This document shows positions 6,029 through 38,958 of a stretch of DNA of 64,000 nt, piece by piece. The stretch's first letter is position 1. Each line of letters begins with the position of its first letter. The stretch lies in NCBI RefSeq assembly GCF_018866325.1, contig NZ_CP076457.1:310001-374000 (forward strand). Direction: 5' to 3'. Source of the DNA: Streptomyces sp. YPW6. GTDB lineage: Bacteria; Actinomycetota; Actinomycetes; Streptomycetales; Streptomycetaceae. Both the position numbers and the translations under genes were made by a program. The notes under the pieces were generated by a model that worked only from the letters and a program-made list of their open reading frames with translations, was not told the origin of the DNA and did not search any database.

Positions 6029-6100
6029 CGGAGTCCGGGGCCGCCGGGTTGGCACTCCCGGCCCCGGGCTCTTCGCGGGCTCCCGACGGCGACGGCTCGC

Positions 6101-7780
<1,680 letters not shown>

Positions 7781-23371: not shown

Positions 23372-24274
23372 CTACAGCTGTCTCAGGTGGTCGCGCAGGC
23401 GCCGGGCGGCTTCGGCCATCAGCCCGTCGACGCCCGGCTGCGCGCCCGCCGGGACCGACGATTCGGTCAGCACGGCGACGGCGAAGGTCTGTCCGTCGGC
23501 GTGCTCCACGACACCGATCTCGTGTCTCAGGTTCAGCAGGGTGCCCGTCTTGGCGGACCACCGGCTCGCGTCGGAGCTGAAGTCCGGGGTCAGCCGGTGG
23601 CGCAGCACGTTGTGGGCCATGAGGTCGCGGAGCCGTTCGGCCACGTCCGGATGGATCTTCGACGGGGTCCACAGGGCCTGGAGGAGGTCGACGAAGGAGC
23701 GGGCGCTGCCGGTGTTGGCGCGGGTCGTGTCGAGCTGCGGCACCCGGTGGCCGCGGCCGCTGGTGCCCGCGTCGATGGCCAGCGCGTGGGCGAGGTGCAC
23801 CTGGTCGGCGTCGAAACGCTCCACGGGCGTGTCGAACAGCTCCTCCGTGCGGTGCCGGACCGTGATGCCGCGCAGGTCGGCCTCCCGCAGGAGACCGGCG
23901 ACCCGCGCGGGCGGCGTGAGGTCGAACAGCGCGTCGGCGGCCGTCCCGTCGCTCAGGCAGGTGCTGAGGTACAGCAGGTCGTCGACGGCGATCCTGGCGG
24001 GGTGCCGGAAGCGGCTGAGGCCGGTGGGGCCCGGCGTGGTCACGCGGCCGGGCGCCACGTCCAGCAGGGCCGCGCCGTCCAGCTCACCGCGCCGGATGCG
24101 TTCGAGCGTGGCGAGCGCGAGCGGGACCTTGACCAGGGAGGCCGACGGCAGGTGCGTGTCCGGATCGATGCCCAGCTCCTCCCCCGTGTCCAGGTCCCGT
24201 ACCAGCAGGCACGCGCGCAGACCGCCCTCGGACAGCCGGGTACGCACGTCCCGCACCAGGGCCTCGGTGTTCAT
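23372..24274 (-). CDS. blaB: Cytoplasmic beta-lactamase-like regulator (BlaB-like)
   Basis: 300 aa with the class A penicillin-recognising fold: S46-L-V-K49, S108-D-G110 and K242-T-G. There is no signal peptide, and the EPEL(N) Glu166 segment of true class A enzymes is missing. In Streptomyces cacaoi a similar cytoplasmic protein, BlaB, is needed with the LysR protein BlaA for induction of the secreted lactamase BlaL. The gene order here (blaB-like behind blaA-like, divergent from blaL-like) is the same. Its ATG overlaps the end of the LysR gene (ATGA). GGAAGG precedes the start. A weak serine hydrolase with another role is the alternative. Confidence 0.82.
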   Translation of the reverse strand: MNTEALVRDVRTRLSEGGLRACLLVRDLDTGEELGIDPDTHLPSASLVKVPLALATLERIRRGELDGAALLDVAPGRVTTPGPTGLSRFRHPARIAVDDLLYLSTCLSDGTAADALFDLTPPARVAGLLREADLRGITVRHRTEELFDTPVERFDADQVHLAHALAIDAGTSGRGHRVPQLDTTRANTGSARSFVDLLQALWTPSKIHPDVAERLRDLMAHNVLRHRLTPDFSSDASRWSAKTGTLLNLRHEIGVVEHADGQTFAVAVLTESSVPAGAQPGVDGLMAEAARRLRDHLRQL

Positions 24275-25173
24275 GCCGCCTTCCCTTCCCCGGCGCCGGC
24301 CGGGTCGTCCCCGCCCAGGCAGCGGGCGACGGCCTCGCCCAGCCGTGCTTCCACGGGCAGGGGGCTGCCGTCCGCCGCGACCGTGAGGGCGTAGCCCCGG
24401 CGCGGGGTCGTCTCCCCGATGGGTCGCCAGACCAGGGCGAGTTCCGCGGCCTGGGCCCGGGAGCACAGCAGCAGGTCGTCGGAGCAGAGGACCTCGGCCG
24501 CGGCGGCCGTCAGGTCCGGTGCGACGAGGACCTGCGCGGGTCGCAGGCCCACCGCGTCCCGCAGCCGCGTCAGAGGATCACGGACATGCGGTACGTCGTC
24601 CTCCGGCTGGATCCAGACACGGCGGGCCGGCCCCGGCTCGCCCCGCCCGAGGCGCAGCGTCTCGACGTAGATCCGCCGCACCCCCTCGTCGCGTGCCCCG
24701 GCCAGCCCCAGGGGCACGGACCAGGACGCCCCCTCCGCGGGTACGGCGAGCAGCGCGGCACGCACCTGCCGGGCCTGGAGCAGCTCCCTGCGCAGCGCCG
24801 GTCCGGCGGCCCGGAGGTCCAGCCGGACGCCGTGGCCCCGTGCCTCGGCGACCAGACGTGCCAGGGCGGACGCGGGGCAGACGGCGGGAACGGCCAGTCG
24901 CCAGGGCTTGTGCTTGACGGCTTCGGCCTCCTCCAGCAGGACGTCGGCGGCCCGGACGAGTCGCCGGGCGGCGGCCAGCATGTCGCGCCCGAACGGGGTG
25001 AGCACCGCCCGCCGCGACGTCCGCTCGAACAACTGCCCGCCGAAACGCTCCTCCAGGGCCGCGACCCGTCGGCTCGCCACCGACTGGGACATCCCCGCGG
25101 CGGCCGCCCCGTCGGTGAAGCCCCCGTACTCACCGACGCTCACGAACGCCCGACACGCTCCGACCAGATCCAC
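24271..25173 (-). CDS. blaA: LysR-family regulator of the beta-lactamase (BlaA-like)
   Basis: 300 aa. Winged HTH at about 1-62 (FTDGAAAAGMSQSVASRRVAALEERFGGQLFERTSR), followed by an effector-binding region. GTG start at 25173 with no real ribosome site; the GC-rich run GGGGT abuts it, so the mRNA leader may be very short. Divergent from the class A lactamase across 165 bp containing two palindromes, and coupled to the BlaB-like gene. By analogy with S. cacaoi it should activate the lactamase gene. Confidence 0.85.
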   Translation of the reverse strand: MDLVGACRAFVSVGEYGGFTDGAAAAGMSQSVASRRVAALEERFGGQLFERTSRRAVLTPFGRDMLAAARRLVRAADVLLEEAEAVKHKPWRLAVPAVCPASALARLVAEARGHGVRLDLRAAGPALRRELLQARQVRAALLAVPAEGASWSVPLGLAGARDEGVRRIYVETLRLGRGEPGPARRVWIQPEDDVPHVRDPLTRLRDAVGLRPAQVLVAPDLTAAAAEVLCSDDLLLCSRAQAAELALVWRPIGETTPRRGYALTVAADGSPLPVEARLGEAVARCLGGDDPAGAGEGKAA

Positions 25174-25212: not shown

Positions 25213-25338
25213 AGCGTATTGGACCGCATGACGGGACGGGGACGAAAGTGACTCCGGCAGGCATGATCACGCAGCGGGCCGGGCCGTGCGGCCCCGTCCC
25301 CGATGCGCTCCGGACCGGAGCGCCAGGAGGTTTCGCCG

Positions 25339-26274
25339 ATGCATCACCCCCGCGTCAGGACCGCGGTCGCCGGTCTGGTCGCCGCGCTGTCGCTCGTACC
25401 GCTGGCGGCCTGCGGGCAGGGCGGCTCCACCGCGCCGCCCTCCTCCGCCGGGCCCGCCGCGAGCGCGTCGGCCTCCACCGCCGCGAAGCCGTACACCGGC
25501 GACTTCGAGGAGCTGGAGCGGACGTTCGACGCGCGGCTGGGCGTATACGCCGTCGACACCGGCACCGGGCGCGAGGTGACCCACAACGACCGGGCGCGCT
25601 TCGCCTACAACTCGACCTTCAAGGCGCTCCAGGCCGCCGTCGTGCTCCAGACCTACTCGCTGGACGGACTGGACAAGCGGGTGACGTACACCCGCGAGGA
25701 CCTGGTCGCCAACTCTCCGGTGACGGAGAAGCACGTGGACACGGGCATGACGCTGAAGGAGTTGTGCGACGCCTCCGTGCGCTACAGCGACAACGCCGCG
25801 GCCAACCTGCTCTTCGACCACGTCGGCGGTCCCGAGGGCCTGGACGCATCGCTGGAGAAGCTCGGCGACGACGTCACGCGGATGGACCGGGAGGAGCCGG
25901 AGCTGAGCCGCTGGGTCCCCGGTGAACAGCGGGACACCTCCACGCCCCGGGCGCTGGCCGGGGATCTGCGCGCGTTCGTCCTGGGCAAGGCCCTGCGCGC
26001 ACCCGAGCGGGCGCAGCTGACGACGTGGCTGCGGACCAACACCACGGGTGACGCGGTGATCAGGGCGGGTGTGCCCGAGGGATGGGTCGTGGGTGACAAG
26101 ACCGGGACCGGCAGCTACTACGGGGCGCGCAACGACATCGCCGTGGTGTGGCCGCCGGACTCGGCACCCATCGTGATCGCCATCCTGTCGCACCGCGGCA
26201 CGAAGGACGCGGAGCCGGAGGACCGGCTGATCGCCGAAGCGGCCTCCGTGGTCGTCGACACGCTGTCCTCCTGA
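25339..26274 (+). CDS. blaL: Class A beta-lactamase, lipoprotein form
   Basis: 311 aa. Exported with a lipobox (LAAC, Cys25). All class A motifs are present: S92-T-F-K95, S150-D-N152, E186-P-E-L and K254-T-G. It hydrolyses penicillins/cephalosporins; spectrum not predictable. AGGAGG lies eight bases before the ATG; an earlier in-frame start at 25303 lacks a ribosome site. Lipid anchoring agrees with several Streptomyces lactamases found both cell-bound and released. Regulation by the divergent LysR gene is likely. Confidence 0.93.
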
Positions 26275-26331: not shown

Positions 26332-27522
26332 CTACGGATGCCGGGGAGCGGGAGTGCCCGGCACCGTACGGCGGACGGCGAGCAGGGTGGCGTCGTCCCT
26401 GAGATGGCCCGCCGTGTGGCCGGCCAGAGCCTGCATCAACGCGTTGAGCAGCGTGTCCGGTTTCGCGCTCCGGCCTCCGCCGGTACCGAGGAAGGACTGG
26501 GCCCAGGGGACGAGGGGGAAGAAGGCGCCGCTCCGGTCGCGGGCTTCGGTGACTCCGTCGGTGACCAGGAGCACGGTCTCCTCCGGGTCCAGTGGCACGC
26601 GGTTGATCTGCGTCCGCCGCGCGCCGGTGAGTTCGGCCAGGCCGAGCGGGGGGTTCTGTTCCTCGGGCAGGCGGCGGACCCCCCGAGGGCCGAGGACGAG
26701 GGGTCCTTCGTGGCCGAAGTTGACGAAGTCGACGTGTGTGCCGTCGGCGCGGAAGGCGATGACGACCGCCGTCGCCAGGCGCGGCTCGTGCCCGGGATCG
26801 GCGGCGGCCAGCAGAGCGTTGTGGCGGCGGAGCCCGTCCTCCATCCGAGCCGCCACGACGGCCATGTCCTGCTCGTGGTACCCGGCTTCCCGGAACGCAC
26901 CCACCACGGCGCCGGCCGTCGACAGCGCGGCCAGCCCCTTGCCCTGTACGTCGCCCAGGGTCACGCGCGCCCCGTACGGGGTGGACAGCACGTCGAAGAA
27001 GTCGCCGCCCATCCGGGATCCGGCGTCGGCGGGCACATAGGCCGCCGAGGAGTCCACCCCGCCCCATCCGGGCGGAATGGGCCGGACCACCACCTCCCGG
27101 GCCGTGAGCAGTGCGTTCTGCAGACGCGCCAGGTCGGACAGGTTCCTCGATCGCAGGAAGGAGACCACCACCGCCAGGAGAATCACACTGACCCCCAGAG
27201 CGAGTCTCTCCAGCCGCAGGTTCGGCCCCGGCTCCGCCATGATGAAGAGCCGGCTCGCCACCAGGGCGAGGCCGCCGAAGACCGCTGTCGCCCAGGGCGA
27301 ACACAGCGCCGCCGCCAACAGCGGAACCATCAGCAGCCAGTCCTCACCGCTGCCCGGCACGTCCCTCCAGTACCGCACAGCCACCACCACCACGAGAAAG
27401 ACGGTGGGGACCAGCCATCCCCACCGGTCCCCCCGCAGCAGACGGAGCCTCGACGCGTGACGGCCGGTCAGCCAGCGGAAGGCACTCCGTTCGCCCGGGG
27501 CACCCGCAGAAGATCCACTCAT
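26332..27522 (-). CDS. Membrane-bound SpoIIE-type PP2C phosphatase
   Basis: 396 aa. Three to four N-terminal membrane helices (WLVPTVFLVVVVAVRYW; WLLMVPLLAAALCSPWATAVFGGLALVAS; LALGVSVILLAVVVSFL) lead through a short coil to a PP2C/SpoIIE domain (about 155-390). The metal-ligand motifs are RMGGDFFDV, LGDVQGKG, NFGHEGPLV and DGVTEARD. There is no separate sensor domain, so the membrane part may sense. ATG at 27522 (MSGSSAGAPG) is preferred; the upstream extension is low-complexity. It ends convergently to the lactamase gene. Confidence 0.85.
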   Translation of the reverse strand: MSGSSAGAPGERSAFRWLTGRHASRLRLLRGDRWGWLVPTVFLVVVVAVRYWRDVPGSGEDWLLMVPLLAAALCSPWATAVFGGLALVASRLFIMAEPGPNLRLERLALGVSVILLAVVVSFLRSRNLSDLARLQNALLTAREVVVRPIPPGWGGVDSSAAYVPADAGSRMGGDFFDVLSTPYGARVTLGDVQGKGLAALSTAGAVVGAFREAGYHEQDMAVVAARMEDGLRRHNALLAAADPGHEPRLATAVVIAFRADGTHVDFVNFGHEGPLVLGPRGVRRLPEEQNPPLGLAELTGARRTQINRVPLDPEETVLLVTDGVTEARDRSGAFFPLVPWAQSFLGTGGGRSAKPDTLLNALMQALAGHTAGHLRDDATLLAVRRTVPGTPAPRHP

Positions 27523-27714
27523 GGCGCCCAGTCTCGCCACCGGCGGGCCGCGCACCGTGCCGCCGCGCCCTGCCCGGGTCAGCCGTACCGGGATGCCCGG
27601 CTCGCTGCACCCCTCTCTCACTTCACCCCGGAGAGCCGACGCCTCGCGTCAGGAGTCCCCGGCGGCCGCGTCCGGCGTGGCTGCCGGGGACGGGCCCGGC
27701 CCGGCGGCACCGCA

Positions 27715-27758
27715 CCATCTCCCCTCCATCAATCGCTTGATTGATGGAGGGGAGATGG
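27715..27758. promoter_or_regulatory. 44-bp palindrome over the RBS and start codon of the TetR gene
   Basis: Two perfect 20-bp arms (27715-27734 and 27739-27758) flank GCTT. The inner core is TCAATCGCTTGATTGA, a TetR-type operator shape. The right arm contains GGAGGGG and the ATG at 27755. As DNA it should bind the TetR dimer; as RNA it would hide the ribosome site and start codon. Confidence 0.85.
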
Positions 27759-28402
27759 CTAGCCTCCCCGCCATGTCCCCATCACCACCCGCCTCGCAAG
27801 CCGCCGAAGCCAGCCGGGAACGCATCATCGCCGTGGCCACGGAACTCTTCGCCGACCACGGATACGACGGCACCTCCACCCGGCGCATCGCCGCCGGGGC
27901 CGGACTGAACATGGCGACCGTCGCCTACCACGTCGGCGGCAAGCCGGACCTGTACCGCGAGGTCATGCTCCGTGCCCACCTCGCCGAGCGGCGTCTCCTG
28001 GAGGACGCGCTGTCGGTCTTCCGCACGCAGTCGTCCGGGGATCCGGTCGCGGCGGTCACCGGACTCGTCGACCGCTACCTCGACTTCTGCCTCGAACAGC
28101 CGCACGTACCCGCCCTGTGGATGCGCCGGTGGCTCGACGACGCCGCGGAGTTCGGGGATCTGGAGGCGTCCTACACCCGTCCCCTCGTCAACGCGGTCCG
28201 CGACACCGTGGGCGAGGCGCTCGCCGGACCGCCCGACCGGGCCGACGTCGAGATGGCGGTGTGGACCGTGCTCTGGAGCACGCACGGCTTCTGCCGCTCC
28301 CCCGTCCGCACCGAGGTGCCCCGCTTCCGGGCCCACCTGCGCGGCCTCGCCCTGCGCGAACTCGGACTCGACAGCGCGACGGGCCGCCGGGAAGCCGGAT
28401 GA
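27755..28402 (+). CDS. TetR-family repressor of the MFS/lyase operon
   Basis: 215 aa. N-terminal TetR HTH at about 20-65 (IIAVATELFADHGYDGTSTRRIAAGAGLNMATVAYHVGGKPDLYREVM) and a C-terminal all-helical ligand domain with a WMRRWLDD segment. First gene of a three-gene operon, coupled to the MFS gene through ATGA. Start ATG 27755 is chosen because GGAGG lies four bases ahead; ATG 27773 has none. Autoregulation through the 44-bp palindrome that covers its own start is very likely. The ligand may be the transporter or lyase substrate. Confidence 0.9.
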   Translation: MASLPAMSPSPPASQAAEASRERIIAVATELFADHGYDGTSTRRIAAGAGLNMATVAYHVGGKPDLYREVMLRAHLAERRLLEDALSVFRTQSSGDPVAAVTGLVDRYLDFCLEQPHVPALWMRRWLDDAAEFGDLEASYTRPLVNAVRDTVGEALAGPPDRADVEMAVWTVLWSTHGFCRSPVRTEVPRFRAHLRGLALRELGLDSATGRREAG

Positions 28403-29766
28403 CGACCGCGGCGCGCCCGGCGGACCTCACCGACGAGGTCTCGCGCAGCCGCCTTGTGGTCTACGGACTCGGATCGGTGGGCACCGGCCTGTTCTCCACC
28501 GTTCCCGGACTCCTGCTGCTGTATTTCATGACCGACGCGCTCGGCGTTCCCGCCGGGGTCGCCGGCCTGGTCGTCACCCTGCCCAAGGCGTGGGACGTGC
28601 TCGTCAATCCCTGGGTCGGCGCCGCCAGCGACCGGGAGGCCGTCCGCACCGGCGGACGTACCCGGCTGCTCGTCGCCGGAGCCCTCGCCCTGCCCGCGGC
28701 GTTCGCGGCCATGTTCCTGTCACCCATGACCGGTACGGGCGCGGCGATCTGGGTGGCCGTCACCTTCGTGCTGGCGGCCGGCGCCTACTCCCTCTTCCAG
28801 GTCCCCTACGTGGCCCTGCCCACGGAGATGTCCGGTGACCCCGCGGTCCGCACCTGCATCACGGTGTGGCGGATCGTCTTCCTGACGCTGGGCATCCTGG
28901 TCGCGGGCGGTGTCGCTCCCGCCCTGGTCGGCGCCGCGGGGAACGGCCGGACCGGTTACGCGGTGATGGCGGTGACCGTGGGGGCGGTCATCGCGGTCGT
29001 CCTGCTCGTACCGGCGCTCGGCACCCGCTGGGTGCGCTCGCGCCCGGGACCGGAGCCTCTCGGTCTCGTACCGGCGTTCCGCACCGCGCGCGGCAACCGC
29101 CCCTTCTTCGCTCTCCTGGCGTCGTTCGTCCTGCAGGCCGCGGCCGTCGCGATCATGCTCGCCGCCGCACCGTACGTCGCCACCCACCGGCTCGGCGACT
29201 ACAGCCTCACCTCGGTGCTCTTCCTCTGTCTGGTCGCGCCGAGCGCGTTCGCCGTCCCCCTGTGGGCCAGGGGTGCGGCACGCTGGGGACGGCTGCGCTG
29301 CCTCACGTTCGCGACGTGCGGCTACGCCCTCGGCGCGGCGGCCCTCCTCCCGGCCGCCGGCATCACGAGCGGCACCGCGTCCGTCGTGGCCACGCTCGCC
29401 CTGTGCGCGCTGCTCGGCGTCTGCTTCGCGGCCCTTCAGGTCCTGCCGCTCGCCCTGCTTCCGGACACCGTGCACGAGGACAGTGCCCGGACCGGACGGA
29501 TCCAGTCCGGCGCGTTCACCGGACTCTGGACGGCCGGTGAGACCTTCGGCCTGGCGGCCGGCCCCGGCGCGTACGCCCTCGCCCTGGCCGCGACCGGTTT
29601 CACTTCCTCGACCCCGGGCCACCCGGTCGCCCAGACCGCCACCGCGCAGACCGGCATCCTGCTCGGCTTCAGCGTGGTCCCCGCCCTGCTCATGCTGCTC
29701 TCCCTGCCGGCCCTGCACGTCTACGGCCGCCGCCGCGCCCCGCAAGAAACGGAGTCTCCTCGATGA
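28399..29766 (+). CDS. GPH-type MFS transporter
   Basis: 455 aa with about 12 membrane helices. The N-terminus (YGLGSVGTGLFSTVPGLLLLYFMTD), KAWDVLVNPWVGAASDR loop and QVPYVALPTEMSGD are characteristic of the glycoside-pentoside-hexuronide:cation symporter branch. That branch also contains animal MFSD2 lipid carriers. Substrate unknown. Coupled on both sides by ATGA overlaps to a TetR regulator and to a sphingosine-1-phosphate-lyase-like enzyme, so it probably moves the enzyme's substrate or product. Confidence 0.88.
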   Translation: MTTAARPADLTDEVSRSRLVVYGLGSVGTGLFSTVPGLLLLYFMTDALGVPAGVAGLVVTLPKAWDVLVNPWVGAASDREAVRTGGRTRLLVAGALALPAAFAAMFLSPMTGTGAAIWVAVTFVLAAGAYSLFQVPYVALPTEMSGDPAVRTCITVWRIVFLTLGILVAGGVAPALVGAAGNGRTGYAVMAVTVGAVIAVVLLVPALGTRWVRSRPGPEPLGLVPAFRTARGNRPFFALLASFVLQAAAVAIMLAAAPYVATHRLGDYSLTSVLFLCLVAPSAFAVPLWARGAARWGRLRCLTFATCGYALGAAALLPAAGITSGTASVVATLALCALLGVCFAALQVLPLALLPDTVHEDSARTGRIQSGAFTGLWTAGETFGLAAGPGAYALALAATGFTSSTPGHPVAQTATAQTGILLGFSVVPALLMLLSLPALHVYGRRRAPQETESPR

Positions 29767-31265
29767 CGAGCCACCAGCAAGCCGCCGCCGCTCCGCCCGT
29801 GCACCACCCGGGTCTGCCCGAAAGGGGCCGCGCCGGTGTCGGCCTCCTCGGCGAACTCGCGGCTCACACCGACGCCGACCTGCCGACCCGGGGCGGCCGG
29901 ACCACCGCGTACGTCTACGACAGCGGCCGAGCCGACGTACGGGACACCACCGAACGGGCCTACGTCGCGATGATGGAGGTCAACGGGCTCGACCCGACGG
30001 CGTTCCCGAGCATCGTCACCCTGGAGCGCCAGGTGGTCGGCGCGACGGCCACCCGGCTCGGCGGCGACGACACCACACCGGGAATCTTCACCAGCGGCGG
30101 CACCGAGTCCATCATGCTCGCGGTGAAGGCGGCCCGGGACGCCCGCCCCGACGTCCTCGCGCCGGAGATCGTCGTCCCCGTCACGGCCCACGCGGCCTTC
30201 CACAAGGCGGGCGCCTATCTGCGGGTCACCGTGCGCAGCGCACCCGTCGACCCGACGTCCTACCGCGCCGATCCCGCCGCGGTCGCCGACCTGTGCAACG
30301 AGAACACCGTCCTCGTCGTCGCCTCCGCCCCCTCCTACGCCCACGGTGTCGTCGACCCGGTCACGGAGATGGCCGCCGATGCCGCGGCCCGGGGCATCCC
30401 CTGTCATGTCGACGCCTGCGTCGGCGGCTGGCTGCTGCCCTGGCTCGCCGACGCCGGGGCGCCCGTACCCGCCTTCGACCTGTCCGTTCCCGGCGTCACC
30501 TCGCTCTCGTGCGACCTGCACAAGTTCGGCTACGCGCCGAAGGGCGCCTCGGTGCTGCTCTTCCGGGACGAGGCCATGCGGCTGCGCGCCTACTACGCCT
30601 GTGCCGCCTGGCCCGGGTACATCGTCGTCAACTCCACCGTGCAGAGCAGCAAAGGGGCCGGGCCGCTCGCCGGAGCCTGGGCCACGCTGCAGGCACTCGG
30701 CGCCGACGGTTACCGGGAACTGGGGCGCGCCGCCCTGTCCGCGACCCGTCGCCTGATGTCCGGAGTCGAGGCCATCGACGGCCTCGTCGTCCTCGGCGAG
30801 CCGGATTCCACCCTCGTGGCCATCGGCGCCGATCCCGCCGCCGCACGCCCGCTCGACCTGTTCGCCCTCGCCGACGAGGCCCGCGCCAAAGGCTACTTCC
30901 TCCAGCCCCAGCTCAGCCTCGACAGCATCCCGGCCAGCCTGCACCTGACGCTCACCGGCGTCAGCGGTTCGGGCGTCGACGGCCTCCTCGCCGTGCTGCG
31001 CGAGTGCGTCGAAGCGGTCCGTCCGCTTGGCCCTCCGACGCCGCCCGCCGACGTCGTCGAGCTGCTGCGTCAGGTGGACCTGTCCGAGCTGGACAACGCC
31101 TCCTTCGCCGCGCTCCTGCCCGCTGCGGGCATCGACCTCACCCCGGGCGACGACGTGACGACGGCCCCGGTCAACCGTCTGCTGGACGCCCTCGCACCGA
31201 GCACCCGGGAGGCCGTCGCGGCCCGCTTCCTGTCCGCGCTCTACAGCCCCTGCCTGGGCGGGTGA
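29763..31265 (+). CDS. PLP-dependent sphingosine-1-phosphate-lyase-like enzyme
   Basis: 500 aa, cytoplasmic (no membrane anchor, unlike the eukaryotic enzyme). Group II PLP decarboxylase fold. Signatures shared with S1P lyases: YVYDSGRADVRD, IFTSGGTESIMLAVKAARD, HVDACVGGWLLPW (D217 binding the PLP ring N), and SLSCDLHKFGYAPKGASVLL with Schiff-base K254. A C-terminal extension of about 70 residues beyond the fold is not seen in short homologues. Expected reaction: retro-aldol cleavage of a phosphorylated long-chain base or analogous amino alcohol; aspartate/tyrosine-type decarboxylation is an alternative. Last gene of the TetR-MFS operon. Confidence 0.85.
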   Translation: MTSHQQAAAAPPVHHPGLPERGRAGVGLLGELAAHTDADLPTRGGRTTAYVYDSGRADVRDTTERAYVAMMEVNGLDPTAFPSIVTLERQVVGATATRLGGDDTTPGIFTSGGTESIMLAVKAARDARPDVLAPEIVVPVTAHAAFHKAGAYLRVTVRSAPVDPTSYRADPAAVADLCNENTVLVVASAPSYAHGVVDPVTEMAADAAARGIPCHVDACVGGWLLPWLADAGAPVPAFDLSVPGVTSLSCDLHKFGYAPKGASVLLFRDEAMRLRAYYACAAWPGYIVVNSTVQSSKGAGPLAGAWATLQALGADGYRELGRAALSATRRLMSGVEAIDGLVVLGEPDSTLVAIGADPAAARPLDLFALADEARAKGYFLQPQLSLDSIPASLHLTLTGVSGSGVDGLLAVLRECVEAVRPLGPPTPPADVVELLRQVDLSELDNASFAALLPAAGIDLTPGDDVTTAPVNRLLDALAPSTREAVAARFLSALYSPCLGG

Positions 31266-31379: not shown

Positions 31380-32054
31380 TCACGCGGCCGGCGCCTCGGC
31401 GGTGCCGCGCTCCTCCCAGCGGACCGTACGGTCGCACCAGCGCTCCAGCAGCACCCGGTCGTGGCCGACGGCCAGCAGGGCCGCCCCGGACTCCGCGCGG
31501 TAGCGCTCGACGACGGCGACCAGGGCGGCCGTGGTGGACGCGTCGAGCATCGCGGTCATCTCGTCGCAGATCAGCAGCCGGGGCCGCAGCACCAGGGCGC
31601 GGGCCAGGCAGGCCCGCTGGAGCTGCCCGTCGCTCACCGCGTGCGGCCGGCGCTCCAGCAGCTCGTCGGAGAGGCCGACCAGCGGGGCCAGTTCCGCCAC
31701 CCGCTCGGGGACGTCCCGGCGGCGGCCGGTGGACCGCAGCGGCTGGGCGATCAGTTCGCGCAGGCTGAGCCGGGGGTCGGCGGAGAGCCGGGGCTGCTGG
31801 AAGACGACGCCGACGGCGGTGCGCCGCTCACGCGGGGCGCGGTGCCGCCAGCCGCGTACCACCGTGCCGTCGAGGGTCATGGTTCCACCGTCGGGGCGGT
31901 GCAGGAGGGCGGCGACCTTGGCCAGGGTGGACTTGCCGCAGCCGCTGGGGCCCAGCAGCCCGACCGCCTCGCCCGCTCCGACGCGCAGGGACACGTCGCG
32001 GACGACGGGGTCGCGGCGGTCGTACCCCGCGGTGATCCGGGTCAGCTCAAGCAC
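31380..32054 (-). CDS. ABC importer ATPase, second (short)
   Basis: 224 aa. Walker A GPSGCGKST (about 34-42), Walker B LLICDEM, and a variant signature VSDGQLQRACLARAL in place of LSGGQ. It lacks the C-terminal oligopeptide-binding extension with cysteines of OppF/DppF, so it resembles NikE-type partners. GTG start overlaps the preceding ATPase by 8 bases. Last gene of a five-gene importer operon. Confidence 0.87.
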   Translation of the reverse strand: MLELTRITAGYDRRDPVVRDVSLRVGAGEAVGLLGPSGCGKSTLAKVAALLHRPDGGTMTLDGTVVRGWRHRAPRERRTAVGVVFQQPRLSADPRLSLRELIAQPLRSTGRRRDVPERVAELAPLVGLSDELLERRPHAVSDGQLQRACLARALVLRPRLLICDEMTAMLDASTTAALVAVVERYRAESGAALLAVGHDRVLLERWCDRTVRWEERGTAEAPAA

Positions 32055-33060
32055 CGGCGGACTCCTTCGTCGGGGAGGACGCCCGGCCGGTGGGCCCGTG
32101 GTGGCAGGCCAGCCCCGCCGTGAAGAGCGGGCGCTCGCCGGTGCAGCGGGCGTCGGCGTAGGCGCAGCGGTCGGCGAAGGCGCAGCCCTCGGGCAGTGCG
32201 CCCAGCTCCGGCGGCATCCCGGGGATCGGGGTGAATGCCCGCTCCGGCAGTGCGTCCAGCAGGCCCCTGGCGTACGGGTGGCGGGGGCCGGGGGCGCCGA
32301 AGAAGGTCCCGGCGTCCGCGATCTCCACGATGCGGCCCGCGTACATGACGGCGACCCGGTCGGCGATGCGTTCGGCGGCGGCCAGGTCGTGGGTGATGAT
32401 CAGGAGCGCCCGGCCCTCGTCGGTGTGGCGGCGCAGTTCGTCCACGGTCCGCTCGACGAGGTCCCGGTCGAGTCCGGTGGTTGGTTCGTCGGCGAGCAGC
32501 AGCGGGGCGTCGCCGATGAGGGCGAGGGCGGTCGCGGCGCGCTGGGCGAGACCGCCGGAGAGCTCGTGCGGGTAGCGGTCGAGATGGCCCTCGGGGAACG
32601 AGGCGCGGGCGGCTGCCGCCACGACGGCCTTCGGCAGTTCACCGCCCCGCGCCCCGGTCAGCTCGCGCAGGCTCTCCTCCAGCTGCGCCCGGACGGTGCG
32701 CACGGGGGTCAGATGGGCGGCGGGGCTCTGCGGTACGAGGCCGATGCGCCGCCCCCGTACGGTGCGGGCGAGGGTGCGCTCGCCGGCGGTGAGCAGGTCC
32801 GTGTCGCCGCCGAGCACCGCGCTGCCGGTGGTCCGCGCGTTGGCGGGGAGCAGCCCGAGCAGGGCGGAGGCCAGCACGGACTTGCCGCAGCCGCTCTCGC
32901 CGACCAGGGCGAGGCACTCCCCCGGCGCGACGGCGAAGCGGGCACCGGTCACGGCGGCGATGTCCCGGCCGCCGCGCATACGGAAGCGGACGGAGAGGTC
33001 GCGGACGTCCAGGACGGGAACGTCACGGCCTGCCGAGGCGGTGTGCTGGTCGGCGGTCAC
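32047..33060 (-). CDS. ABC importer ATPase, first (OppD/DppD-like)
   Basis: 337 aa. Walker A GESGCGKS, signature LSGGLAQRAATALAL, Walker B LLLADEPT. The usual oligopeptide/nickel ATPase C-terminal extension carries four spaced cysteines (CAFADRCAYADARC...C), which bind an Fe-S or Zn in this family. GTG start overlaps the stop of the permease (GTGA). Powers uptake with the second ATPase. Confidence 0.9.
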   Translation of the reverse strand: MTADQHTASAGRDVPVLDVRDLSVRFRMRGGRDIAAVTGARFAVAPGECLALVGESGCGKSVLASALLGLLPANARTTGSAVLGGDTDLLTAGERTLARTVRGRRIGLVPQSPAAHLTPVRTVRAQLEESLRELTGARGGELPKAVVAAAARASFPEGHLDRYPHELSGGLAQRAATALALIGDAPLLLADEPTTGLDRDLVERTVDELRRHTDEGRALLIITHDLAAAERIADRVAVMYAGRIVEIADAGTFFGAPGPRHPYARGLLDALPERAFTPIPGMPPELGALPEGCAFADRCAYADARCTGERPLFTAGLACHHGPTGRASSPTKESAGA

Positions 33061-33914
33061 AGCATCAGCTCCGATTTCCGGCGCGGGTTGATCCGGTCGC
33101 GCCAGGCTCCGGCGAGTCCCGCGAGCGCGAGGGTCGGGATGATCAGGAAGAGGCCCGGGAAGAGGGTGGGCCACCAGTCCCCCGCGAGCAGCGAGCCGCG
33201 CGCGGACTGGACGAGGTTGCCGAGGCTCGCCTGGTGGGACGGGAGGCCCAGCCCGAGGAAGGACAGCGCGGACTCGTGCCACATGGCGTGCGGCACCATC
33301 AGCACGGCCGCGAGGCCCGCCTGCGGCAGCACGCCGGGCAGCAGGTGGCGCACGATGACCCGGGTGCGGGACGCGCCGCCGGAGACGGCCGCGTCGATGA
33401 AGGGGCGCGAGCGCAGCGAGAGCACCTCGGAGCGGACGATCCGGGCGGTGGAGATCCAGTGCGTCAGGGCGACCGAGACGATCACCGGCCAGACGCCGGG
33501 CCGGAACATCGCGACGATGAAGATGCCGAGCAGCAGGTGCGGGATGGAGGACAGGGCGTCCACGACGCGCATCACGACCCGGTCGGTCCAGCCGCCGAAC
33601 GCCCCGGCGAGCGCACCGATCGCGGTGCCGATGACGGTGGCGGTGAGGGCGGCGACCAGGCCGACGAGCAGGGAGACGCGCAGCCCATAGACGCAGCGCA
33701 GCAGGAGGTCGCGGCCGACGTCGTCGGTGCCGAAGGGGTGGGCGAGGGACGGCGCCACGAGCTTGTTGGCCAGGTCGACGGCCTGCTGGTCGAGCTGGGC
33801 CAGCGGCGGGACGACGAGGACGGCGAGCGCGACGGAGATGACGATCACCGCCGAGGTGACGACCCGGACGCGGCGGGTGGTGCGTCCGGGCCGGGCGAGT
33901 GCGGTCTCAGCCAT
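33057..33914 (-). CDS. ABC importer permease, DppC/NikC-like
   Basis: 285 aa, six membrane helices. The family motif AHPFGTDDVGRDLLLRCVYGLRVSL and the EAA loop (DAAVSGGASRTRVIVRHLLPGVLP) are clear. Overlaps the upstream permease gene by 8 bases. Confidence 0.92.
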   Translation of the reverse strand: MAETALARPGRTTRRVRVVTSAVIVISVALAVLVVPPLAQLDQQAVDLANKLVAPSLAHPFGTDDVGRDLLLRCVYGLRVSLLVGLVAALTATVIGTAIGALAGAFGGWTDRVVMRVVDALSSIPHLLLGIFIVAMFRPGVWPVIVSVALTHWISTARIVRSEVLSLRSRPFIDAAVSGGASRTRVIVRHLLPGVLPQAGLAAVLMVPHAMWHESALSFLGLGLPSHQASLGNLVQSARGSLLAGDWWPTLFPGLFLIIPTLALAGLAGAWRDRINPRRKSELML

Positions 33915-34899
33915 CGAAGGCCACCCGGGGGTCGGCGAGTCCGTAGAGGAGGTCGGAGAGGAGGTTGCCGAGCAGGACGGCCGCGGTGGCGAGCACGGTG
34001 AGCGCGGCGAGCAGGGAGAAGTCCACCGAGGTGGCGGCCTGGACGGTGGCGGCGGCGATGCCCGGCCAGCTGAAGACCGTCTCGACGAGCAGGGCGCCGG
34101 TGATGAGTTCGGGGACGCGGGAGCCGATCAGGGTGAGCATGGGCAGCATCCCGGAGCGCAGGGCGTGGCCGAGGAGGACGGTGCGCTCGCTCAGTCCCCG
34201 GGCGCGGGCGCCGCGGACGGGGTCCTCGTCCAGCGCGTCGGCGACCCCTTGGCGGACGTACAGGAAGAACCACGGCAGCTGGGAGATGCCGAGGACCGCC
34301 GCGGGCAGCACCAGGTGGGTGGCGACCTGGCCGAAGGTGACGACGTCGCTGGCGGCGTCGGTGAGCCCGCCGGCGGGGAGGACGTCGAGCTTCAGGGCGA
34401 AGAACCAGATGGCCAGCAGCCCGAGCCAGAAGGCGGGGGCGGCTTCCAGGGTGTACGCGACGGAGCTGACGCACCGGTCGAGCCAGCCTCCGGGCCTGCG
34501 GGCGGCGAGGACGCCGAGGCCGGTGCCGAGCAGGATCGCGACGAGGAAGGCGGTGGCGGCGAGCAGGACGGACCAGCCCATGCGTTCGGCGATGACGTCG
34601 GCGACGGGCCGGCGCATCACGCTGGAGTCGCCGAGGTCGCCCCGGAGGGCGGAGGTCAGCCAGTCCCACCAGCGGGCCACCAGCGGCTGGTCGACGCCGA
34701 GGTTGGCCCGCAGCTGGTCGAGGTTCTCCTGCGATGCGGTGAGCCCGGCCGTGCCCGCGTAGGCCTTGACCGGGTCGAAGGGGGACGCGGCCGCGACGGC
34801 GAAGACGCCGAAGGTGACGACGCCGAGGACGGGGACGGCGAACAGGGCCCGCCGTCCCGCCATCCGTGCCATCGGCCCCCAGGGGAGGCGACGGCTCAC
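33907..34899 (-). CDS. ABC importer permease, DppB/NikB-like
   Basis: 330 aa, six membrane helices, with the typical long periplasmic-side segment after helix 1 (SQENLDQLRANLGVDQPLVARWWDWL). The EAA-type loop is VRGARARGLSERTVLLGHALRSGMLP. GTG start at 34899 overlaps the stop of the binding-protein gene (GTGA), which decides the start over upstream candidates. Confidence 0.92.
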   Translation of the reverse strand: MSRRLPWGPMARMAGRRALFAVPVLGVVTFGVFAVAAASPFDPVKAYAGTAGLTASQENLDQLRANLGVDQPLVARWWDWLTSALRGDLGDSSVMRRPVADVIAERMGWSVLLAATAFLVAILLGTGLGVLAARRPGGWLDRCVSSVAYTLEAAPAFWLGLLAIWFFALKLDVLPAGGLTDAASDVVTFGQVATHLVLPAAVLGISQLPWFFLYVRQGVADALDEDPVRGARARGLSERTVLLGHALRSGMLPMLTLIGSRVPELITGALLVETVFSWPGIAAATVQAATSVDFSLLAALTVLATAAVLLGNLLSDLLYGLADPRVAFDG

Positions 34900-36512
34900 T
34901 TCTCCGAGCCCCCGGTGCTCTTGGCGGACCACTTCTCGACGTTCCACCAGGGGCCGGAGGCCAGCCCGTGGTCGTGCGGCTCGACCTGGGTGGTGAGGGG
35001 GCCGAAGCGGTCGTCGACGACGTAGAGGTGGTCGATGTGGGTGAGGAAGGTGTAGCCCGGGTTCTTCACCAGCTCGCGCTGGACGGTGTCGTAGGCCTTC
35101 TTCCGCTCGGCCTTGTCCCCGCTCCTGCGCCCGGCCTCGATCGCGGCGTCGACGGCCTTGTTGTCGTACCAGGCCATGTTGTTGAAGCCGTCGCCCGCGA
35201 GGGACGACTTGAGCAGGGTGTACTGGTCGAAGTCGGGGTCGGCCGGGGAGCCGCCGCCCGCGAGCACGGCGTCGTGCTTCATGCGGGGCTCGATGACCTC
35301 CCAGGTGCCGGCCTCTGTGCGGATGTCGATGCCCGCCTTCTTGGCGTCGGAGGCGTAGGCCAGCGCGTGCTCCTGGCGGAGCTTGTCACCGCTGAGGTAC
35401 CAGAGGGGGAAGGTGGCGCGCACGCCGTCCTTGACGCGGACGCCGTCCTCGCCGGGCTTCCATCCGGCCTCGTCCAGGATCTTCTTCGCGGCGGCGAGGT
35501 CGTGCTCGCGCTCGGTGCCCTTCGTGAACCACTCGCTGTCGGTGGGGACGGGGCCGTAGGCGGGCTTGCCGCTGCCGTTGAGGATGGCGTCGACCATCGC
35601 CTGCCGGTCGACCGCCACGTCCAGGGCGCGGCGCACGGCGGTGTCGCCCGCGACCTTGTTGTTGGTGGGGAGCGTCACCGTGCGGTAGTCGTAGCTGTTC
35701 GCCGCGTAGGTCTTCTTGCCCTGGTCGTCGGCGAAGCCCTTGGCGAGGTTGGGCGGCAGGATCGCGCCGTCGAGGTCGCCGGAGCGCAGCCGGGTGGCGC
35801 GCACGTCGTCGTCCTTGATGACCGCCATGGTGAACTTCTTCACCTCGGGTGCGCCGCCCCAGTAGTCGGGGTTGGCGGTGAAGCTGAGCTTCTCGCCCTT
35901 GGACCACTTGGTGAGGACGTAGGGCCCGGTGCCGATCGGCTTGGTGGTGAAGGCCCCGGTGTTGACGTCCTGCTTGCCCGCGACGTGCTCGGGGGCGATG
36001 GGCAGGACGGTCCGCTGGGCGAACGGCGCGTAGGGGTACTTGAGCGTGAAGACGACCGTGTCCTCGCCCTTCGCCGTGACGTCCTTGACGGCGTCCAGCT
36101 CGGTGCGGGAGGGGTTGTTGGTCTTCTCGTCGAGGATGGTGCGGTAGGTGAAGACGACGTCCTCGGCGCCGAACGCCTTGCCGTCGCTGAACTTCACGCC
36201 CTGGCGCAGCTTGTACGTGTACGTCAGGCCGTCGGCGCTGATCTCGGGGAGTTCCACGGCGAGGGCGGGGCGGAGCTTCATGTCCGCGTCCAGGGCGAGC
36301 AGCCCGTCGAAGATCTTGGAGTTGCCGTCCTTGCCGTAGCCGAGCAGCGGGCTCAGGCTGTCGGGCTCGTAGGCGATGCCGACGACGGCCGAGGTGGAGC
36401 CGGACCCGGATTCGTTCGTGGGGCTGTCCGGGTTCGAGCAGGCCGCCGCGGTCAGGGACAGGGCGGTCGCCAGTGTGGCGGCGACCGCCACCCGTATCGA
36501 TCGGGCCGTCAT
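34896..36512 (-). CDS. ABC importer solute-binding lipoprotein (SBP family 5)
   Basis: 538 aa. Signal peptide with lipobox (LTAAAC, about residue 25) then the family 5 binding fold: PDSLSPLLGYGKDG, ISADGLTYTYKLRQGVKFSDGKAF, YAPFAQRTVLPIAPEHV. The family binds oligopeptides, nickel chelates or other small ligands; the ligand cannot be told here. First gene of the five-gene operon. The start is uncertain by a few codons (ATG 36512 preferred over 36524 and 36563). TTGC-N9-GCAA in the promoter region may be a control site. Confidence 0.9.
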   Translation of the reverse strand: MTARSIRVAVAATLATALSLTAAACSNPDSPTNESGSGSTSAVVGIAYEPDSLSPLLGYGKDGNSKIFDGLLALDADMKLRPALAVELPEISADGLTYTYKLRQGVKFSDGKAFGAEDVVFTYRTILDEKTNNPSRTELDAVKDVTAKGEDTVVFTLKYPYAPFAQRTVLPIAPEHVAGKQDVNTGAFTTKPIGTGPYVLTKWSKGEKLSFTANPDYWGGAPEVKKFTMAVIKDDDVRATRLRSGDLDGAILPPNLAKGFADDQGKKTYAANSYDYRTVTLPTNNKVAGDTAVRRALDVAVDRQAMVDAILNGSGKPAYGPVPTDSEWFTKGTEREHDLAAAKKILDEAGWKPGEDGVRVKDGVRATFPLWYLSGDKLRQEHALAYASDAKKAGIDIRTEAGTWEVIEPRMKHDAVLAGGGSPADPDFDQYTLLKSSLAGDGFNNMAWYDNKAVDAAIEAGRRSGDKAERKKAYDTVQRELVKNPGYTFLTHIDHLYVVDDRFGPLTTQVEPHDHGLASGPWWNVEKWSAKSTGGSEK

Positions 36513-36649: not shown

Positions 36650-37768
36650 TCAGGGCGCCGGAAGCTCCGCCAGCTCCGCGACGGACCGACGGTGGCTGCC
36701 CGCGGTGCCGTGGGCGAGGGAGTCCGCCTTGGCGCGCTTGAGGTAGAGGTGCGCGGGGTGCTCCCAGGTCATGCCGATCCCGCCGTGCAGCTGGACGCAC
36801 TCCTCGGCGGCGTGCACGGCGACGCCCGAGCAGTACGCCTGGGCCACCGCGACGGCCAGCGGGGCGTCGGGGCTGCCGGTGGCCAGCGCGTCGGCTGCGT
36901 TGCGGGCGGCGGCGCGGGCCGAGACGACCTCCAGCCAGAGCTGCGCCATCCGGTGCTTGAGCGCCTGGAACGATCCGACCGGCCGGTCGAACTGGTGGCG
37001 TTCGCGGGTGTGGCGGACGGTCTCGGTCAGACACCACTCGGCGATCCCGAGCTGCTCGGAGGCGAGCAGTCCGGCCCCGGCGAGCAGTCCGCGTCGCACG
37101 GCGGTGGCGCCGGTGTCCGCGTCGGCGAGCCGGATCCCGGTCGCCCCGGCCAGGGTGACGGCGGCCAGCGGGCGGGTCAGGTCGAGCGGGACGAGCGCCT
37201 CGACGGCGACGCCCGGGCCCGCCGTGTCGACGGCGTACAGCCCCTCGGCGGTCGGGACCAGCAGGACGTCGGCGGCGGCCGCGTCCGCGATGCCCCGGAC
37301 CGTGCCGTCGAGCGCGGCGAGGACCGGACCCGCCGCGGCGGGCGCGGTCGCGAAGGGCACGGCGAGCACGGCCGTACGGGCGCCGGAGGCCAGTTCACCG
37401 AGGAGCACCGCGGCCGGTCCGTCCGCGCCGGCCAGCGCGAGCAGGGTCTCGGTGGCCACGACGGAGCTGGTCAGGAAGGGGGCGGGGGCGACACTGCGGC
37501 CCAGTTCCTCCAGGACCACGGCGGCCTCCCGGTGGGACGCGCCCTGGCCGCCGAGCTCCTCGGGGACGAGGAGTCCGGCCGCGCCGATGTCGCCGGCCAG
37601 CGAGGACCACAGCAGGGGGTCGTACGGCGTGTCGGACTCGGTGGCGGCGATCACCGTCGGCGCGTCGGCCCGGTCGGCGAGGAGGGCGCGCACGGCGGAG
37701 CGGAGGTCCTCCTCGTCCTGCGAGTAGAGCAGGTCGGGGGTGGCGGGGGGCTGGGTGGGCGCGGTCAT
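36650..37768 (-). CDS. Acyl-CoA dehydrogenase, small/non-canonical subunit-like
   Basis: 372 aa, ACAD fold (EELGGQGASHREAAVVLEELGRS; RHQFDRPVGSFQALKHRMAQLW; LHGGIGMTWEHPAHLYLKRAK). The C-terminus reads SLAHGTAGSHRRSVAEL, so the usual catalytic Glu of the Y/I-EGT motif is absent. The adjacent ACAD has it. This matches the alpha2-beta2 heteromeric ACADs described for actinobacterial sterol and acyl chain catabolism. ATGA overlap with the upstream gene supports co-translation. Confidence 0.87.
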   Translation of the reverse strand: MTAPTQPPATPDLLYSQDEEDLRSAVRALLADRADAPTVIAATESDTPYDPLLWSSLAGDIGAAGLLVPEELGGQGASHREAAVVLEELGRSVAPAPFLTSSVVATETLLALAGADGPAAVLLGELASGARTAVLAVPFATAPAAAGPVLAALDGTVRGIADAAAADVLLVPTAEGLYAVDTAGPGVAVEALVPLDLTRPLAAVTLAGATGIRLADADTGATAVRRGLLAGAGLLASEQLGIAEWCLTETVRHTRERHQFDRPVGSFQALKHRMAQLWLEVVSARAAARNAADALATGSPDAPLAVAVAQAYCSGVAVHAAEECVQLHGGIGMTWEHPAHLYLKRAKADSLAHGTAGSHRRSVAELAELPAP

Positions 37769-38958
37769 CGGCTCAGGTCCTTCCAGGCGACGTCCTTGTC
37801 GTTGCGGGGCTCGGCGGGCAGCCCGAGGACGCGTTCGGCCACGATGTTCAGCAGGACCTCGCTGGTGCCGCCCTCGATGGAGTTGCCCTTCGAGCGCAGG
37901 TAGCGGTAGCCGGCGTCCCGTCCGGTGAAGTCGACCAGCTCCGGGCGGACCATGGTCCAGTCGCCGTACAGCAGGCCCTCGTCACCGAGGAGTTCGACCT
38001 CCAGGCCGCTGATCTGCTGGTTGAGGCGGGCGAAGGCGAGCTTCATGCCCGAGCCCTCGGGTCCGGGCTGTCCCGCGACGAGTTGCTGGCGGAGCCGCTC
38101 GCCGGTGAGCCGGGCGACCTCGGCCTCGACCCAGAGGGTCAGCAGCCGCTGGTGGGTGTCGGGGGTGCGCAGCTCGGGGCGTTCGCGCCAGGTCCTCGCG
38201 ACCGGGCCGATCATGCCGCCCTCGCGGGGGATGCGGGAGCCGCCGATGGAGACGCGCTCGTTCATCAGGGTGGTCCGGGCGACCTTCCACCCGTCGCCGA
38301 CCGGACCGAGCCGGTGGCTGTCGGGGATGCGTACGCCGGTGAGGAAGACCTCGTTGAACTCGGCCTCGCCGGTGATCTGGCGCAGCGGCCTGACCTCGAC
38401 GCCGGGGTCGGTCATGTCGCAGATGAAGTAGCTGATGCCCCGGTGCTTGGGGACGTCCGGGTCGGTGCGGGCGATGAGGATGGCCCAGCGGGCGAGGTGG
38501 GCGCTGGACGTCCAGACCTTCTGGCCGTCGACGATCCAGTCGCCGGTCTCGTCCCGCACGGCCCGGGTCGCCAGGGCGGCGAGGTCCGATCCGGCGCCCG
38601 GCTCGCTGAACAGCTGGCACCAGACCTCCTCACCGACCCACAGCGGGCGCAGGAAGCGGCGCTTCTGCTCGTCGGTGCCGAAGCCGAGGAGGGTGGGCGC
38701 GGCCATGCCGAGGCCGATGCCGATGCGGCGCGGGTCGTTGTCGGGCGCGTCGGCGGCGGCGAGTTCGGCGTCGGCGACCTGCTGGAGGGAGCGGGGCGCG
38801 TCGAGCCCGCCCAGGCCCACCGGGTAGTGGACCCAGGCGAGTCCTGCGTCGAAGCGGGCCTTCAGGAAGTCGGTGCGGCCGGTGGTGGCCGGCGGGTGCG
38901 CGGCGAGCAGCTCGCGGGTGCGGCGGCGGACGTCCGCGGCGTCCACGGCGGGGCTCAT
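37765..38958 (-). CDS. Acyl-CoA dehydrogenase, catalytic-Glu-bearing partner
   Basis: 397 aa. ACAD motifs CQLFSEPGAGSDLA and VWTSSAHLARWAILIARTD, and the C-terminal SIEGGTSEVLLN that supplies the catalytic Glu. It should form FAD-dependent 2,3-dehydrogenation of an acyl-CoA, perhaps as a heteromer with the downstream ACAD. ATGA overlaps on both sides bind it to the quinone oxidoreductase and the other ACAD. Confidence 0.88.
   Translation of the reverse strand: MSPAVDAADVRRRTRELLAAHPPATTGRTDFLKARFDAGLAWVHYPVGLGGLDAPRSLQQVADAELAAADAPDNDPRRIGIGLGMAAPTLLGFGTDEQKRRFLRPLWVGEEVWCQLFSEPGAGSDLAALATRAVRDETGDWIVDGQKVWTSSAHLARWAILIARTDPDVPKHRGISYFICDMTDPGVEVRPLRQITGEAEFNEVFLTGVRIPDSHRLGPVGDGWKVARTTLMNERVSIGGSRIPREGGMIGPVARTWRERPELRTPDTHQRLLTLWVEAEVARLTGERLRQQLVAGQPGPEGSGMKLAFARLNQQISGLEVELLGDEGLLYGDWTMVRPELVDFTGRDAGYRYLRSKGNSIEGGTSEVLLNIVAERVLGLPAEPRNDKDVAWKDLSR

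Follow-up and report, generated by a model that had tools for sequence, protein, structure and literature searches.

A paired MFS_2 transporter and S1P-lyase-like enzyme with an altered substrate pocket in Streptomyces sp. YPW6 and other actinomycetes

The window, a 64,000-nucleotide stretch of Streptomyces sp. YPW6 DNA (contig NZ_CP076457.1, positions 310,001 to 374,000), contains a string of three genes coding for a TetR-family repressor, an MFS_2 transporter and a PLP enzyme, all from known families but in a variant form. The strongest result is the pairing of the last two: across actinomycetes they are retained side by side or, where unlinked, both present, and no such pair is described in the literature surveyed. 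The reading we favor, and to which we give about an even chance, is that of a substrate-induced transport-and-cleavage module that uses the S1P-lyase fold and acts on an unphosphorylated amino compound; we infer both the substrate and the direction of transport.

All three genes are forward-strand open reading frames, and both junctions are 4-base ATGA overlaps, in agreement with the coupled arrangement described in the initial annotation. The predicted gene types also hold up in Pfam searches. The repressor gene (27755..28402) encodes a TetR_N domain (PF00440; 42.9 bits, cut-off 24, 4e-11), the GPH/MFSD2-type transporter gene (28399..29766) matches MFS_2 (PF13347; 240.9 bits, cut-off 27), and the enzyme gene (29763..31265) matches Pyridoxal_deC (51.7 bits, cut-off 27). 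The initial annotation proposed a search for the same set in other actinomycetes, and many of them have the same genes in the same order, so the arrangement is not a chance one. Downstream on the other strand lie an oligopeptide-type ABC operon (31380-36491) and acyl-CoA dehydrogenase genes (36650-38958), none of which lies next to the two genes in L004-L007, which are close orthologues.

A perfect 20-bp inverted repeat with a 4-bp spacer (27715..27758, no strand; arms 27715-27734 and 27739-27758, core TCAATC-GCTT-GATTGA) is present at the start of the repressor gene and is probably a TetR operator, which predicts autoregulation. The ATG at 27755 falls inside this repeat, and the real start may therefore be the in-frame ATG at 27773. 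The palindrome has one perfect place in the 7.70 Mb genome, the next best having 3 mismatches, and among the 13 orthologues whose TetR is 60% or more identical, nine have a TCAATC-N(0-8)-GATTGA-like motif near the TetR start. Of the 58 loci with adjacent enzyme and transporter genes, 29 also have a TetR homologue, counted when it scores 90 bits or more and lies on the same strand within the flanking sequence examined. Two genes plus a repressor with a single site in the genome make a system that is easy to test, and the TetR protein could be used for an inducer screen, its inducer likely being the substrate or something close to it.

Among 296 genomes of the class searched, 59 have a full-length enzyme (a match reaching profile position 485 or beyond), the transporter is present in 57 of these, and the enzyme gene is directly behind the transporter gene in 46; Asp77, discussed below, was checked in part of the 59 enzyme genes. 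Twelve of the 69 genomes with the transporter have no detected full-length enzyme in a first look that scored five candidates per genome, and the Fisher test on co-occurrence ignores relatedness. In a second comparison, the transporter is directly upstream at 58 of 118 loci of enzymes with Asp at this position (Asp-type), compared with none of 31 loci of other homologues; L085-L088, which duplicate L027, L005, L006 and L004, are left out of the 118. Most of the 60 Asp-type loci without an adjoining transporter (52) are from Streptosporangiaceae. The named loci represent a top slice, the search having been limited to the 80 best-scoring of 541 confirmed relatives.

The enzyme groups with S1P lyases and not with amino-acid decarboxylases in both sequence and fold. 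The motifs HVDACVGG and DLHKFGYAPKG, taken in the initial annotation as S1P-lyase signatures, are present, their aligned counterparts in the Symbiobacterium S1P lyase being HVDACLGG and DTHKYGYGAKG. In phmmer comparisons StSPL scores 264 bits (2.7e-77) and the archaeal tyrosine/aspartate decarboxylase MfnA 74 bits (1e-19), and a predicted model of the enzyme (pLDDT 93.9) matches S1P lyase with a Z of 53 across 435 residues, the C-terminal domain among them, versus 45 for MfnA. Across StSPL, human SGPL1 and yeast Dpl1p the values are 50-53; MfnA is just below most S1P lyases, although the Legionella S1P lyase (4w8i, 347 residues aligned) reaches only 39.2, below MfnA. The MfnA match, at 24% identity, stops before the C-terminal extension of the window enzyme.

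Within the family the enzyme nonetheless belongs to a separate clade. Forty rows carry Asp at the position of StSPL His129, and in a tree built with the motif columns removed and no outgroup they form exactly one side of one branch (support 100/98), with StSPL and human SPL on the other side; in a tree with L002 and L003 as outgroup, the branches of these two are too long for rooting. The group printed as NxLD in the latter tree has 41 rows because it includes the glutamate decarboxylase L002_out, and the clade proper has 40.

The cofactor residues of StSPL are kept, with K254 (the PLP Lys311), H143 (His201) and H253 (His310), as are D217 (Asp274), C219 (Cys276) and S296 (Ser353), the residue roles being those in Table 3 of PMC6148460. 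Of the five residues that contact the substrate phosphate, three are kept (Tyr105, Asn126 and Lys317 are Y52, N74 and K260) and two are replaced non-conservatively, His129 by Asp (D77) and Ala103 by Tyr (Y50). All clade rows have the first replacement, and of the 41 rows printed as NxLD, 39 have the second. The substrate-entry residue Tyr482 appears, by eye, to be N471. PMC6148460 (Table 3) gives Gln at the His129 position and Thr at Ala103 for the Burkholderia S1P lyase, and the same source gives Thr at Ala103 for the human enzyme, so His129 is not strictly required in an S1P lyase.

Vertebrate MFSD2B is an S1P carrier, and the initial annotation assigned the transporter to the MFSD2 branch. 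This stands insofar as the lysolipid symporter MFSD2A is its best match among solved MFS_2 proteins, both by profile (141 bits versus 96 for MelB) and by fold (Z 41 versus 36.5), albeit at 19% identity. In the fold comparison MelB does no better than the unrelated MFS carriers SotB (37.9) and SPNS2 (37.1), so this ranking also reflects conformation. The tree sets the transporter apart from the sugar symporters MelB, UidB, YicJ, YihO and YihP (99/96, on long branches); as long branches meet in it, a root shared with MFSD2A is no more than possible.

The charged residues agree with MFSD2A in part. The first Asp of the helix II pair (MelB D55, D59), that of the WD motif in MFSD2A, is kept as D66, but N70 replaces the second, which MFSD2A has in common with MelB, and E381-T382 stands where MelB has V376-K377. 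All 12 sugar symporters compared have the TM11 Lys, as does MFSD2A, whereas 36 of the 39 clade rows have Thr, and Glu at the E381 position beside it is invariant (39 of 39); these rows include L241, with no adjoining enzyme, and L233, which is cut by a contig end. MelB R149 aligns with I159, and the invariant R158 next to it may be its counterpart. MelB Asp19, Asp124 and Trp128 are not kept; the galactoside residues of MelB are kept in MelB orthologues only, according to PMC8329300, and their absence thus says little.

Asp and Tyr in place of His and Ala in the pocket, together with the loss of the central Lys and an adjacent Glu in the transporter, suggest that the substrate is probably not phosphorylated. 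With the Burkholderia Gln at the His129 position and K260, Y52 and N74 kept, phosphate could still be bound, and an acidic substrate would be compatible with D77; our guess is a head group that is neutral-polar or amine-bearing. In the favored scheme a small amino compound would enter via the transporter and release TetR, and the enzyme would bind the amine of this compound as an external aldimine and break the adjoining bond. This may be a retro-aldol C-C cleavage as in S1P lyase, giving an aldehyde and a small amine, or alternatively a decarboxylation, and the transporter could instead serve efflux of the substrate or product.

Three other explanations need to be weighed against such an unphosphorylated amino compound. 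The initial annotation suggested a long-chain base phosphate as substrate, with MFSD2-like uptake and cleavage to fatty aldehyde and phosphoethanolamine. That the closest solved relatives of the enzyme are S1P lyases, that MFSD2A, not MelB, is the closer match of the transporter and that three of the five phosphate residues are kept all agree with a true S1P module, but the Asp and Tyr replacements, the apparent Asn at the entry position, the separation of the clade from StSPL and human SPL and the absence of the TM11 Lys and of one helix II Asp from the transporter leave this substrate unsupported and the module quite unlikely. An acidic-amino-acid decarboxylase or lyase, with the transporter importing the amino acid or exchanging it for the product, is somewhat easier to entertain, though still unlikely. 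GadB has the PLP fold, its N83 and D86 align with N74 and D77 (MAFFT and hhalign), and Asp86, from the neighboring subunit, binds the gamma-carboxylate according to PMC12961736; D77 could then act likewise on a distal carboxylate. Amino-acid ABC transporter genes also lie within about 6 kb at all four alphaproteobacterial homologues examined (33-38% identity), but three of these carry Gly and one His at position 129. Moreover, identity to GadB is about 21% (hhalign), the enzyme falls below the curated cut-offs for MfnA (TIGR03812, 166.3 of 299.4 bits) and glutamate decarboxylase (TIGR01788, 90 of 380.4 bits), and its C-terminal extension is of the S1P-lyase type. The strand at 390-399 has no Arg near GadB R422, which we take to be the arginine for the alpha-carboxylate, in an alignment of uncertain register.

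A sugar-related module, in which the MFS_2 protein would carry amino sugars or amino polyols and the lyase would cleave them, seems to us the most improbable of these explanations. In its favor, the characterized bacterial MFS_2 members compared transport sugars or sugar acids, L251 and L254 have genes for a PfkB kinase and a class II aldolase next to the pair on the opposite strand, and FGGY kinases neighbor sister enzymes. The transporter, however, lacks the TM11 Lys common to sugar symporters, is parted from them in the tree and scores below the GPH cut-off (TIGR00792, 144.5 versus 231.35 bits).

Returning to the unphosphorylated amino compound, a broader proposal, which we put forward tentatively and with less confidence than the module itself, is that the NxLD enzymes represent a third branch, functionally distinct, within the S1P-lyase/group II decarboxylase family, with a dedicated Lys-less, Glu-bearing MFS_2 carrier. 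The binding-site charges of both proteins would have changed in step, and the amine- or hydroxyl-bearing amino compound would be taken up, or detoxified, by retro-aldol cleavage. Several bacterial S1P-lyase homologues carry the S1P name, and given the different pocket this name should not pass to this large, often transporter-coupled clade. The window enzyme also differs from the known S1P lyases in that its gene belongs to a string shared with a transporter gene and a TetR gene.

The pair sits in unrelated chromosomal contexts across lineages, with neighbors such as pepN (L126), efp, nusB and bldD (L135) and an OtsA-like gene (L251). The flanking genes are mostly unrelated from lineage to lineage, so the context names no pathway, and identification of the substrate from neighboring genes was rejected. 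Two kinds of neighbor do bear on the substrate. Where the homologue has His or Gln at position 129, an FGGY kinase adjoins six of the nine loci (L205, with His by alignment, is pattern-unclassified and outside the nine), and a member of this kinase cluster is near only one Asp-type locus (L035), where it is not adjacent; this fits phosphorylated substrates for the His/Gln homologues and not for the Asp-type enzymes, although the PfkB genes of L251 and L254 show that a kinase is not always absent near the pair. The other is an aldehyde dehydrogenase gene, which runs divergently from the pair at two loci of one genus (L170, L172), a single-genus clue that fits an aldehyde product.

The three genes at 27755–31265 on the forward strand encode a TetR regulator (215 aa), an MFS_2 transporter (455 aa) and a PLP-dependent enzyme (500 aa), and are joined by two 4-base ATGA overlaps. 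Reading frames, Pfam and NCBIfam bear out this arrangement as described in the initial annotation, with Pfam and NCBIfam backing the family-level assignment of all three genes; its more specific calls for the enzyme and the transporter are largely correct by sequence, fold and profile comparisons. Directly upstream, on the other strand, is a SpoIIE-type phosphatase gene (26332–27621), and beyond it are a forward-strand beta-lactamase gene (Pfam Beta-lactamase2; 25303–26274) and an adjoining LysR-type regulator gene on the other strand (24271–25143). An oligopeptide/dipeptide-type ABC operon (31380–36491, reverse strand) encoding two ATPases, two permeases and SBP_bac_5 lies downstream, followed by two acyl-CoA dehydrogenase genes (36650–38958). 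Within the single 7,695,589-base contig of the YPW6 genome (E 0.001), a search with the enzyme finds, besides itself, two distant matches (30% and 33% identity), and one with the transporter finds no other. Among the best 80 of 541 enzyme relatives, the nearest named ones are from Streptomyces (82–85% identity).

The solved proteins closest to the enzyme in sequence are S1P lyases (StSPL of Symbiobacterium, 2.7e-77; human, 1.5e-67), with MfnA at 1e-19. The AlphaFold2 model (pLDDT 93.9) matches StSPL with Z 53 over 435 residues and human S1P lyase with Z 52, and MfnA (Z 45) and glutamate decarboxylases (Z up to 43.5) follow; the match to Legionella S1P lyase is lower (Z 39.2 over 347 residues). 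With residue roles as given in Table 3 of PMC6148460, the window enzyme retains K254, H143, D217, C219, H253, S296, Y52, N74 and K260 (StSPL K311, H201, D274, C276, H310, S353, Y105, N126 and K317). H129, one of the substrate-phosphate residues of StSPL, is replaced by D77, and A103 by Y50; the C-terminal motif of StSPL Y482 reads APVN, apparently with N471 in place of the tyrosine when compared by eye. In a 73-row tree built after removal of the motif columns, the 40 rows with Asp at StSPL position 129 form one side of a branch (support 100/98), and the remaining 31 rows (types His, Asn, Gln and others) fall on the opposite side together with StSPL and human S1P lyase. D77 and N74 align with E. 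coli glutamate decarboxylase Asp86 and Asn83 by both MAFFT and hhalign, and because Asp86, supplied by the neighbouring subunit, is described in PMC12961736 as binding the gamma-carboxylate of glutamate, position 129 seems to be a determinant of specificity in this fold, with the caveat that PMC6148460 reports Gln there in Burkholderia S1P lyase.

A profile built from 41 transporter relatives matches MFSD2A with 141 bits and MelB with 96, and the transporter model (pLDDT 90) gives Z 41 and 36.5 respectively, with other MFS carriers such as SotB (Z 37.9) falling between them in fold match. In a 60-row tree, a branch (99/96) separates MelB, UidB, YicJ, YihO, YihP and seven relatives from the window clade with MFSD2A, the branches being long. 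The site itself, judged by aligned residues, resembles neither that of the sugar symporters nor that of MFSD2A. The TM11 lysine found in 12 of 12 sugar symporters and in MFSD2A is T382 here (T in 36 and K in 3 of 39 clade rows), and the adjoining E381 is Glu in all 39 clade rows and in 7/7 unpaired relatives. MelB D59 is replaced by N70 (N in 32 and D in six of the 39), and the MelB sugar residues D19, D124 and W128 (roles as described in PMC8329300) by G30, Q134 and V138.

In both the carrier and the enzyme a basic residue has been lost, and an acidic one occupies its position or the adjacent one; this is an argument, not proof, against a phosphate on the substrate. S1P, a long-chain base phosphate of the kind suggested as substrate in the initial annotation and the substrate of the lyases closest to the enzyme, is improbable given the H129 and A103 replacements, the separate clade and the loss of the TM11 lysine. 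We give about an even chance to the reading that we consider most likely, that an unphosphorylated amino compound is taken up and then cleaved in a PLP-dependent reaction, in which we infer uptake rather than efflux. Among the papers listed for S1P lyase together with actinobacteria, Streptomyces or an operon that includes a transporter, no description of the pair was seen.

Neighbouring genes offer several clues to the chemistry. An aldehyde dehydrogenase gene divergent from the transporter–enzyme pair at two loci of one genus (L170, L172) would suit an aldehyde product. Alphaproteobacterial plasmids account for eight of 11 matches in all; four of these eight homologues were looked at (33–38% identity), and each has genes for amino-acid ABC transporters no more than about 6 kb away, a point in favour of amino-acid-like substrates across the wider family. 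The neighbours of the pair at L251 and L254 point elsewhere: on the opposite strand they include a PfkB-family kinase, a class II (fuculose-phosphate type) aldolase and a TetR gene. Homologues with His or Gln at position 129 directly adjoin an FGGY carbohydrate kinase gene at six of nine loci, all six actinobacterial (L193–L195, L197, L200, L201), and not at L191, L198 or L199; this linkage would fit substrates that carry a phosphate in those branches, and such a kinase and lyase may act in turn, the one phosphorylating an amino polyol or a similar compound and the other then cleaving it. The remaining neighbours looked up indicated no pathway. At L181, a gene (4967–6328) with a Peptidase_M19 match (1.4e-08) precedes the pair on the same strand, separated from it by 32 bases.

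Among 149 enzyme-homologue loci, an MFS_2 gene is directly upstream on the same strand at 58 of the 118 with Asp at position 129 and at none of the 31 others; 29 of these 58 also have a same-strand TetR homologue of at least 90 bits, and Streptosporangiaceae account for 52 of the 60 Asp-type loci that have no adjacent transporter. A separate survey of 296 genomes of the class found the transporter in 69 and a full-length enzyme (reaching at least profile position 485) in 59, with both in 57, the transporter only in 12 and the enzyme only in two (Fisher p = 2e-46, ignoring relatedness of the genomes). The two genes adjoin in 46 of the 59 and are present but apart in 11 more, and none of 33 shorter homologues is adjacent to a transporter. 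Starting from the transporter, ten of 20 loci with flanks have an adjoining Asp-type enzyme gene, nine lack one and one ends at a contig edge. Within the genus, 30 of 295 genomes have a homologue at E 1e-60 or better. The pair is found in unrelated chromosomal places, beside pepN (L126), between nusB and bldD (L135) and near an OtsA-like gene (L251), and therefore behaves as a unit. The nusB–bldD position, a core chromosomal region, is that of one Streptomyces subgroup (gene names checked in L135), with the pair in L131, L134 and L135 and the enzyme without the transporter in L132 and L133. In part of family f89 (loci L262–L264, L266, L268; genomes G693, G725, G752, G784, G791, G798, G806, G895, G911) each genome carries both genes but far apart, the transporter next to unrelated genes, and this split pair is useful for testing the transporter–enzyme link.

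An inverted repeat with perfect 20-bp arms, 4 bp apart (27715–27758), overlaps the proposed TetR start and is a putative operator. Its core, CCATCAATCNNNNGATTGATGG, has a single copy in the whole genome, the next best place having three mismatches, and TetR probably acts locally, repressing this operon, its own gene included, and no other. A TCAATC...GATTGA motif is close to the TetR start in nine of 13 orthologues with TetR identity of at least 60%, with 16 occurrences, orthologue sites included, in the 2.55 Mb of DNA scanned, and its spacing differs between orthologues.
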